This document shows positions 30,019-51,608 of a stretch of 64,000 nucleotides of DNA, one piece after another. The stretch's first letter is position 1, and the number at the start of each line of letters is the position of its first letter. The notes under the pieces were generated by a model. It saw only the letters and a list, made by a program, of their open reading frames with translations, was not told the DNA's origin and searched no databases. A program made the position numbers and the translations under genes. Origin of the DNA: Blastocatellia bacterium (GTDB lineage Bacteria; Acidobacteriota; Blastocatellia; UBA7656; JADIYM01); the NCBI GenBank assembly GCA_021463145.1, contig JAJTWZ010000019.1, positions 1 through 64,000 on the forward strand. Direction: 5' to 3'.

Positions 30019-30750
30019 ATGGGTTTCGGGCGCGCCAGTCTCACACCGGTCGACGACCGTCCCCTCGCGGATCTGCGCCGCTCCGGCGTCGTCCGCGCGG
30101 GCGCCGAACCCCTCCCCGTTCCCGAGACCGTCGCGTCGGGCGATCCCCTCCTCGCGGCCTTCCTCCCCGGCGGAGGCTTCCCCTGCGGCCACATCACCGA
30201 GATCCGCGGTACGCCCTCGAGCGGCCGCCTCTCGATCACCATCCGCGCCATCCTCCGCGCCCTCGCCCTCGGACAGCGGCCAGCGCTCGTCACGACGCGC
30301 GGTTTCTTTCCGGGCCTCGTACCCTGGCTGCCCGCCGCGCTCGACGCCACGCTCGTCTGCCGCGTCGCGGACCTCGCCGAAGGACTCGGCGCCGCCGAAG
30401 TCCTCGCCACGGCGGGCGCCGTCGACCTCCTCGTCCTCGATGCCGTCGGCCTCGCCGGCGATGGACGCCCCGCCGGCGCCGACGCCTCGCTCGCCCGTCT
30501 CGAGCGCGCCGCGCGCGCCGAACGGCTCGCCCTCGTCCTGCTCACCGACGAGCGGTCCGCGGCCACGATCGGCCTTGGCGCGAAGCCGTCGCTGCGGATC
30601 GAACTGCACGCCGCCGCGTCGGGCGTGCCCGACGGACGGTTCGTCGTCCACCCCTCGATCGTGCGTTCGCGGTTCGCCCGGCCGGCCTCGAGCGCCCCGC
30701 CCTCGGCCCCCGAGTCCGTTCCCATTGCCCGGAGAGGACCCGCGTGGTAG
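30019..30750 (+). CDS. RecA/ImuA-like protein with degenerate Walker A
   Basis: LLAAFLPGGGFPCGHITEIRGTPSSGRLSITIRAILRALA resembles the RecA pattern GGGLPxGxxxEIxGPxSSGKT, but with GRLS instead of GKT. Confidence 0.6.
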   Translation: MGFGRASLTPVDDRPLADLRRSGVVRAGAEPLPVPETVASGDPLLAAFLPGGGFPCGHITEIRGTPSSGRLSITIRAILRALALGQRPALVTTRGFFPGLVPWLPAALDATLVCRVADLAEGLGAAEVLATAGAVDLLVLDAVGLAGDGRPAGADASLARLERAARAERLALVLLTDERSAATIGLGAKPSLRIELHAAASGVPDGRFVVHPSIVRSRFARPASSAPPSAPESVPIARRGPAW

Positions 30751-30813: not shown

Positions 30814-31362
30814 ATGATCCTGACCGGACACGCCATCCGCGACGCCGTCGATCGCGGCGACATCCGCATCGAGCCCTTCGACGAGGCTTCGCTCGGACCG
30901 AACAGTTACGACTACCGGCTGCAGCCCGAGCTCGTCGTCCTCGAGCCCGGCGAGACGGGCGAGCCGCCGCGCGTCGCAATCGGCGACGGCGGATTCACGC
31001 TCGAACCGGGACGCCTCTACCTCGGCGCGACCGAGGAGCTCATCGGCAGCGAACGCTACGCGATGACGCTGCTCGGACGGTCGTCGCTCGGACGGCTCGG
31101 GCTCTACCTCAACATCACCGCGGACCTCGGCCACATCGGCGCCCTCTCGAACTGGACGCTCGAACTGAAGGTCGTCCAGCCGCTCGTCGTCTACCCACGC
31201 ATGCGGATCGGCCAGGTCGCGTTCTGGACGGCCTCGGGCACGCCCGCCGCCTACACGGGCCGCTACCTCGGCGACCGGCGGCCCGTCACGAGCCGCGACG
31301 CCGCCCTCGGCACACCGCCGGGCGACCCAGAATCGATGCCGGACACGGAGCCGCTCCCATGA
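30814..31362 (+). CDS. dcd: dCTP deaminase-family protein (copy 1, catalytic Glu present)
   Basis: EPFDEASLGPNSYDYRL, LLGRSSLGRLGLYLNITADLGHIGALSNWTLELKV, YPRMRIGQVAFW. Confidence 0.85.
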   Translation: MILTGHAIRDAVDRGDIRIEPFDEASLGPNSYDYRLQPELVVLEPGETGEPPRVAIGDGGFTLEPGRLYLGATEELIGSERYAMTLLGRSSLGRLGLYLNITADLGHIGALSNWTLELKVVQPLVVYPRMRIGQVAFWTASGTPAAYTGRYLGDRRPVTSRDAALGTPPGDPESMPDTEPLP

Positions 31363-31901
31363 TCCTCACCGGACCCGCCATCACGGCCGCCGTGCGCGAC
31401 GGCCGGATAACCATCGATCCCTTCGACGAAGCACTCGTCGGACCGAACAGCGTCGACTTCCGGCTCGGCGACCGGTGCAAGGTCTATCGCGACCGCGCCC
31501 TCGACGCCGCGATCGACAACCCGACGGAAGACCTCCCCGTTCCGCCCGACGGCATCGTGCTCGATCCGGCCCGCGTGTACCTCTTCAACACGCTCGAGCG
31601 GATCGGCAGCGCGACCTACGTTCCGATCATCCGCGGACGGTCGTCCGTCGGCCGGCTCGGCGTCTTCACCAACATCACCGCCGACCTCATCGACCTCGGA
31701 TCGATCAACCAGCTCACCCTCCAGATGCATGCCGTCATTCCGGCGCGCGTCTACCCCGGAATGCGCATCGGCCAGGTGACCTTCTGGGCCGTCGAAGGAC
31801 CCGTCACGGATCTCTACCACGGAAAATACGCCGACGCGGAAAGCCCCGTGCCATCAAGGTCATGGCGCGAGTTCACGCCCCCGGAGCGGCCGCCCGCCTG
31901 A
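31359..31901 (+). CDS. dCTP deaminase-like protein (copy 2, catalytic Glu replaced by Gln)
   Basis: DPFDEALVGPNSVDFRLGD, IRGRSSVGRLGVFTNITADLIDLGSINQLTLQMHAV, YPGMRIGQVTFW; ATGA start/stop overlap with copy 1. Confidence 0.8.
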   Translation: MILTGPAITAAVRDGRITIDPFDEALVGPNSVDFRLGDRCKVYRDRALDAAIDNPTEDLPVPPDGIVLDPARVYLFNTLERIGSATYVPIIRGRSSVGRLGVFTNITADLIDLGSINQLTLQMHAVIPARVYPGMRIGQVTFWAVEGPVTDLYHGKYADAESPVPSRSWREFTPPERPPA

Positions 31902-51179: not shown

Positions 51180-51608
51180 TCAGGGCTCGGCGGCGAACTC
51201 CGTGTACTTTCGCGCAGAACCCTGCGCCTTCGCAACCGGATACTTTTGCTCGTTGAGCAGCAGCTTCTCCATGAAGGCGGCTCCGAGGTCGATGTCGTGG
51301 TCGTGCGCGATCAGCAGCACCCAGTAGAGCACGTCGGAAAGCTCGTGCCCGAGGGCCTCGCGATTCTTCTCGAGATGCGCAGCCAGCTCGTCGCCGTTTC
51401 GCCACTGCATCAACTCGAGCACTTCGGCGGCCTCGAGCGCAAGCGACACCGCCGTGTCTTTCGGCGTGTGGAACTGTCTCCAGTCCCGCGCGTCGCGAAA
51501 AGCCAGAACCGCGGCCGTGAGCGCCCGGATCGAGTCGTTCTCCCGCGCCGGCCCGCCCGCCGCACCATTCAGTTCTACCACCTCGCCACTCACGAGCCGG
51601 GCTCCCAC
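51180..51608 (-). CDS. MazG-like nucleotide pyrophosphohydrolase
   Basis: LALEAAEVLELMQW...EALGHELSDVLYWVLLIAHDHDIDL (ExxE...ExxD pattern). Confidence 0.8.
   Translation of the reverse strand: MGARLVSGEVVELNGAAGGPARENDSIRALTAAVLAFRDARDWRQFHTPKDTAVSLALEAAEVLELMQWRNGDELAAHLEKNREALGHELSDVLYWVLLIAHDHDIDLGAAFMEKLLLNEQKYPVAKAQGSARKYTEFAAEP

Follow-up and report, generated by a model that had tools for sequence, protein, structure and literature searches.

Two adjacent genes in a Blastocatellia genome, here called A and B, encode related proteins of the DCD fold that, judging from their residue patterns, probably represent a dCTP deaminase-dUTPase divided between two genes, with A deaminating and B hydrolysing. 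The two proteins have lost opposite catalytic residues, this reciprocal loss is fixed, and the pairing of the genes is conserved.

Results

A translationally coupled pair of DCD-fold genes

Gene A (30814..31362, + strand; 182 aa) and gene B (31359..31901, + strand; 180 aa) lie in the window, by which we mean the whole 64,000-nucleotide stretch of DNA that was analysed. The first-pass annotation had described positions 30814-31901 as a translationally coupled pair of dCTP-deaminase-like proteins with an ATGA overlap, and this description stands: both open reading frames are present, the stop/start overlap is at 31359..31362 (+ strand), the proteins are 45% identical, and both are members of the Pfam family DCD (PF22769; 104 bits for A and 131 bits for B, with a curated cut-off of 27). 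Of the 18 other pairs measured, 12 also have a 4-base overlap. Neither protein matches the classical dUTPase family PF00692 (Pfam, E 0.001). Against the dCTP deaminase equivalog model TIGR02274, which has a threshold of 92.8 bits, A scores below (67.4 bits) and B just above (94.0 bits), although B is the copy that lacks the catalytic Glu.

Single-chain AlphaFold predictions, built from smaller alignments of non-plasmid loci, have pLDDT values of 85.8 for A and 91.9 for B. The best structure match of both predicted folds is the M. tuberculosis dCTP deaminase-dUTPase, with a TM score of 0.86 for B, and sequence searches return the same bifunctional enzyme and that of B. halodurans as the best solved relatives of A and B. 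The bifunctional dCTP deaminase-dUTPases (M. tuberculosis 2QXX/4A6A, M. jannaschii 1OGH, B. halodurans 4XJC) have the fold of A and B and are their closest matches in structure and sequence.

Reciprocal loss of catalytic residues

Both proteins have the GRSSxxRLG block reported in the first-pass annotation, as motif 2: GRSSLGRLG in A (residues 88-96; 31075..31101, + strand) and GRSSVGRLG in B (residues 93-101; 31635..31661, + strand). The Glu/Gln difference described at the same time is also present. At the position of the catalytic Glu138 of E. coli Dcd, A has Glu117 (WTLELKV; 31162..31164, + strand) and B has Gln122 (LTLQMHA; 31722..31724, + strand). The E. coli E138Q variant reportedly has undetectable deaminase activity. 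The second key residue of the superfamily, an Asp (M. tuberculosis (Mtb) Asp119, E. coli Asp128), holds the water molecule that hydrolyses the triphosphate. At this position we found the reverse loss, which had been missed: A has His107 (31132..31134, + strand), and B retains the Asp as Asp112 (31692..31694, + strand). Together with the Glu/Gln contrast, the His of A and the Asp of B at the hydrolytic-water site indicate that the hydrolase residue has gone from A and the deaminase residue from B.

A published analysis found the Asp to be conserved across the whole DCD/dUTPase superfamily, found Ser102, Asp119 and Gln148 to be indispensable for dUTP hydrolysis, and identified Phe at the E. coli Arg126 position as a mark of bifunctional enzymes (PMC3360063). 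B has the residues of a DCD-fold dUTPase (Ser95, Asp112 and Gln139), with Leu rather than the blocking Arg. A has equivalents of all three dCTP deaminase residues of the monofunctional E. coli Dcd (1XS1; Glu138, Arg115 and Ser111), one of which, the Glu, is Gln in B. E. coli Dcd retains Asp128, which is blocked by Arg126, whereas A has no Asp; the hydrolysis-blocking Arg is missing from both A and B, each of which has Leu. Since this Leu replaces Phe in both copies, neither fits the known bifunctional signature. The bifunctional enzymes carry Asp and Glu on one chain; A has no Asp and B has no Glu, and only the pair jointly carries both. The two proteins together have all of the catalytic residues of the bifunctional enzymes, in two genes rather than one.

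A precedent for B is the thermococcal dUTPase of the DCD fold (9LN0, P45; 8Y1W, T. pacificus), in which the Asp is retained and the deaminase Glu is replaced, by Met in the thermococcal enzyme and by Gln, once Met, in B. Identity to B in the structural match is 24-26%, and the residues of the thermococcal enzyme are read from the aligned PDB sequence. With the Asp-without-Glu pattern of a solved dUTPase, B looks like a hydrolase and should not deaminate dCTP.

The reciprocal pattern is fixed across conserved pairs

Our set of 20 A/B pairs draws on Bacillota, Nitrospirota, Actinomycetota, plasmids of Rhizobium, and the window itself. Every A protein has the Glu (21/21, the twenty-first being a lone copy in locus L179 without B) and none has the Asp (0/21), this position being His in 13, Asn in six and Gln in two. 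Conversely, the Asp is present in 20/20 B proteins and the Glu in 0/20, its position being occupied by Gln in 19 and Met in one. The Gln of B is not a singleton mutation, and the earlier observation is confirmed and was, if anything, understated. Across the B proteins, the dUTPase triad is retained (Ser 20/20, Asp 20/20, Gln 19/20). So is the C-terminal lid, which in the window reads GKYADAESPVPS (31821..31856, + strand), with Lys156 and Tyr157 invariant among B proteins. The lid Lys is found in 20/20 B proteins and in 3/21 A proteins. The lid of A is usually degenerate and its equivalent of His121 is mostly Gln, suggesting that A may act poorly alone or act on another substrate.

Neither copy appears to be decaying. 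Mean column identity is 60% for B and 53% for A; with B the better conserved copy and its hydrolase residues kept, we ruled out that B is a pseudo-enzyme. We likewise ruled out that A is a decaying copy, since its Glu, with the W-T-L-E around it, does not vary across 20 aligned A proteins; selection appears to maintain A as an enzyme. These data also bear on the regulatory or sensor role proposed for B in the first-pass annotation, by which B would be a catalytically dead subunit, binding nucleotide and modulating A. Loss of the deaminase Glu and translational coupling to A would fit such a role, as would the organization of DCD enzymes as trimers with active sites between subunits (PMC12088426). 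However, the residues for dUTP hydrolysis (Ser/Asp/Gln; PMC3360063) and the lid Lys (20/20) are kept in B, the more conserved of the two proteins, and its residues follow the pattern of a known dUTPase. We therefore consider a purely regulatory B improbable, and less likely than a split deaminase/dUTPase. As for the suggestion that B binds nucleotide without deaminating, its fixed Gln agrees with the expected lack of deamination, but its hydrolase residues argue against mere binding.

Single-copy relatives differ from A and B in carrying both residues. Among the 25 single-copy relatives in our tree, 25 have the Asp and 24 the Glu, and 17 have Phe at the Arg126 position. The 349 genomes searched from one Bacillota phylum yielded 17 single-copy relatives, and one genus of the window's phylum yielded 21, all with Asp and Glu. 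The single-copy proteins from Bacillota and the window's phylum (L034-L054, L155-L171), which have Asp and Glu together and Phe at the Arg126 position, are among the nearest branches outside A+B. One single-copy gene from the window's phylum (L055:1468-2013) combines Asp with Gln (WTLQI) and lacks an adjoining partner, possibly a stand-alone change of the dUTPase type, going by its residues. Distant single-copy members with His or Gln together with Glu (L006, L008, L018, L020, L056 and L058) indicate that deaminase-type proteins without the Asp occur elsewhere; L006 and L008, with His and Glu, are a precedent for the pattern of A.

Scanning a genome collection with A identified another eight loci, all with A followed by B, in Clostridia, Bacilli and Nitrospirae; the scan used patterns derived from A, including the Glu motif, and so is biased toward A-like proteins. 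Pattern-free translated searches of plasmids also found pairs, in Streptomyces, Nocardiopsis, Nonomuraea, Embleya and Rhizobium. On the Streptomyces plasmid L024, the gene order is reversed and B carries the Met. A Nitrospirae contig (L014:5001-7455) has four tandem DCD-fold genes: A, then B, then one carrying both Asp and Glu, and finally one in which Asp is paired with Thr at the Glu position. The lone A of Embleya (L179:16794-17489) has a B-like end (AVQPVRVYAGM), such as a deletion of most of B would leave. In two small Clostridia genomes (G386 and G387), the A/B pair comprises the only DCD-family genes found, and a search of G386 for a dUTPase-family match found none.

A probable single origin and joint inheritance

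A quick maximum-likelihood analysis of 68 proteins gave a tree, with SH-aLRT support values, in which A proteins form one branch (96), B proteins form one branch (85), and A and B are joined (95) next to the Bacillota-type single copies. When the diagnostic and C-terminal columns were dropped, A still formed one branch; B did not, with two changes (one extra). We conclude that descent of A and B from a single duplication is well supported by the tree. Distances among A proteins correlate with those among B proteins (r=0.88, 20 loci; 0/5000 shuffles as high), and also after thinning to 14 loci (r=0.74; 0/5000 shuffles), indicating that the two genes have moved together. Searched with A, 118 relatives of the window's genome gave weak, single matches only, suggesting that gain in the window's lineage was horizontal.

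Neighbouring genes

A gene for a protein resembling dNMP kinases lies near the pair in 17/20 loci. It matches PHROG 139 (deoxynucleoside monophosphate kinase, phage), and 9/13 plasmids with this kinase also have an A/B pair. On plasmids, the common gene order is dNMP-kinase-like, A, B, zinc cytidine-deaminase-like and methyltransferase. Actinobacterial plasmids share a longer cluster with methyltransferase and glycosyltransferase genes, most adding a nucleotidyltransferase, a radical SAM-like gene and a HAD hydrolase. From its gene content, the plasmid cluster looks like one for nucleoside biosynthesis. A link to the 4'-thiothymidine cluster (PMC12691670) was considered and dropped, as that paper mentions no deaminase. 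In Rhizobium (L023:11997-13022 and L028:11979-13016), a dNMP-kinase-like domain is fused to a zinc cytidine-deaminase-like domain in a gene adjoining A/B; the L023 fusion has no PADLOC match. Upstream of A in L010-L017, Clostridia and Bacilli loci share a gene for an NrtR-type NUDIX regulator and the kinase, and in Clostridia loci an uncharacterised protein of ~235 aa with no Pfam match is encoded directly before A.

In the window, the plasmid-type cluster is absent, and the pair lies between a RecA-like gene on its upstream side and a glyoxalase-like gene on its downstream side. The RecA-like gene (30019-30750, + strand; Pfam RecA, 37 bits) is just upstream of A; its product has Arg in place of the Walker A Lys (TPSSGRLS) and is reminiscent of ImuA/SulA-like proteins. 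A MazG-like nucleotide pyrophosphohydrolase gene (51180-51608, - strand) lies 20 kb from the pair. The kinase has no match in the window's genome and was dropped as part of the system there.

These neighbourhoods are relevant to another reading, in which an obligate mixed trimer of A and B acts on a non-standard cytosine nucleotide in a modified-nucleoside pathway, with the residue changes tuning specificity. In its favour, the plasmid copies sit in a common nucleoside-like gene cluster, the kinase recurs at most pair loci, and the degenerate lid of A beside the conserved lid of B looks as if that of B served both. However, the window pair has neither the cluster nor, in its genome, a kinase match, and a mixed trimer alone would not reunite Asp and Glu if one chain supplies both to each site. 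We regard this reading as possible, though rather unlikely. Similarly, a mixed A/B trimer with deaminase and hydrolase residues in different active sites, taken with the conserved kinase, cytidine-deaminase-like, radical SAM and glycosyltransferase genes, would represent an undescribed modified-deoxynucleoside pathway in several phyla, a proposal that we put forward as speculative and unlikely.

The first-pass annotation had also mentioned that some dCTP deaminases are antiphage effectors that deplete dCTP, and by that reading the pair would be such an effector. The patchy distribution of the pair and its presence on plasmids are consistent with this idea. To our knowledge, antiphage dCTP deaminases such as AvcD have a zinc-dependent CDA fold unrelated to Dcd; the likeness to the pair is one of name and predicted product only. 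Moreover, neither A nor B has a PADLOC match, B would convert the product into a dTTP precursor, and the neighbouring genes are metabolic. Scans of viral contigs and phage searches gave single DCD genes only, those on the viral contigs nearly all with both Asp and Glu, and a viral origin was rejected. With no pair among the relatives fetched from viral contigs, the antiphage link is weak. A viperin-like match in a neighbour at L013 (38 bits) is probably a generic radical SAM protein and was set aside. An antiphage function is thus very improbable, and less likely than the split deaminase/dUTPase.

Discussion

The simplest history is that of a bifunctional ancestor, one duplication and a division of labour. 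A single-copy enzyme with one active site, using Asp for triphosphate hydrolysis and Glu for deamination, would have duplicated once; A would have retained only the deaminase Glu, and B only the hydrolase Asp, along with the other dUTPase residues and the C-terminal lid. We infer that A would convert a dCTP-type nucleotide to the dUTP type, which B would hydrolyse to the dUMP type and pyrophosphate. Translational coupling would balance the levels of A and B, which perhaps assemble as mixed trimers, and the clustered plasmid versions may have a modified deoxynucleotide as their substrate. The window's genome has separate dcd and dut genes elsewhere, suggesting that the pair is dispensable for ordinary thymidylate supply there.

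We found no description of such a pair in the literature searched, which included few subscription journals. The pair offers a natural experiment on one active site that performs two reactions: deamination and triphosphate hydrolysis have apparently been pulled into two coupled subunits, and each half could be studied without making mutants. If the proposed split is correct, the many B copies annotated as dCTP deaminases would be hydrolases and need renaming. The conserved neighbours of the pair hint that soil and gut bacteria have a nucleotide pathway yet to be characterised.
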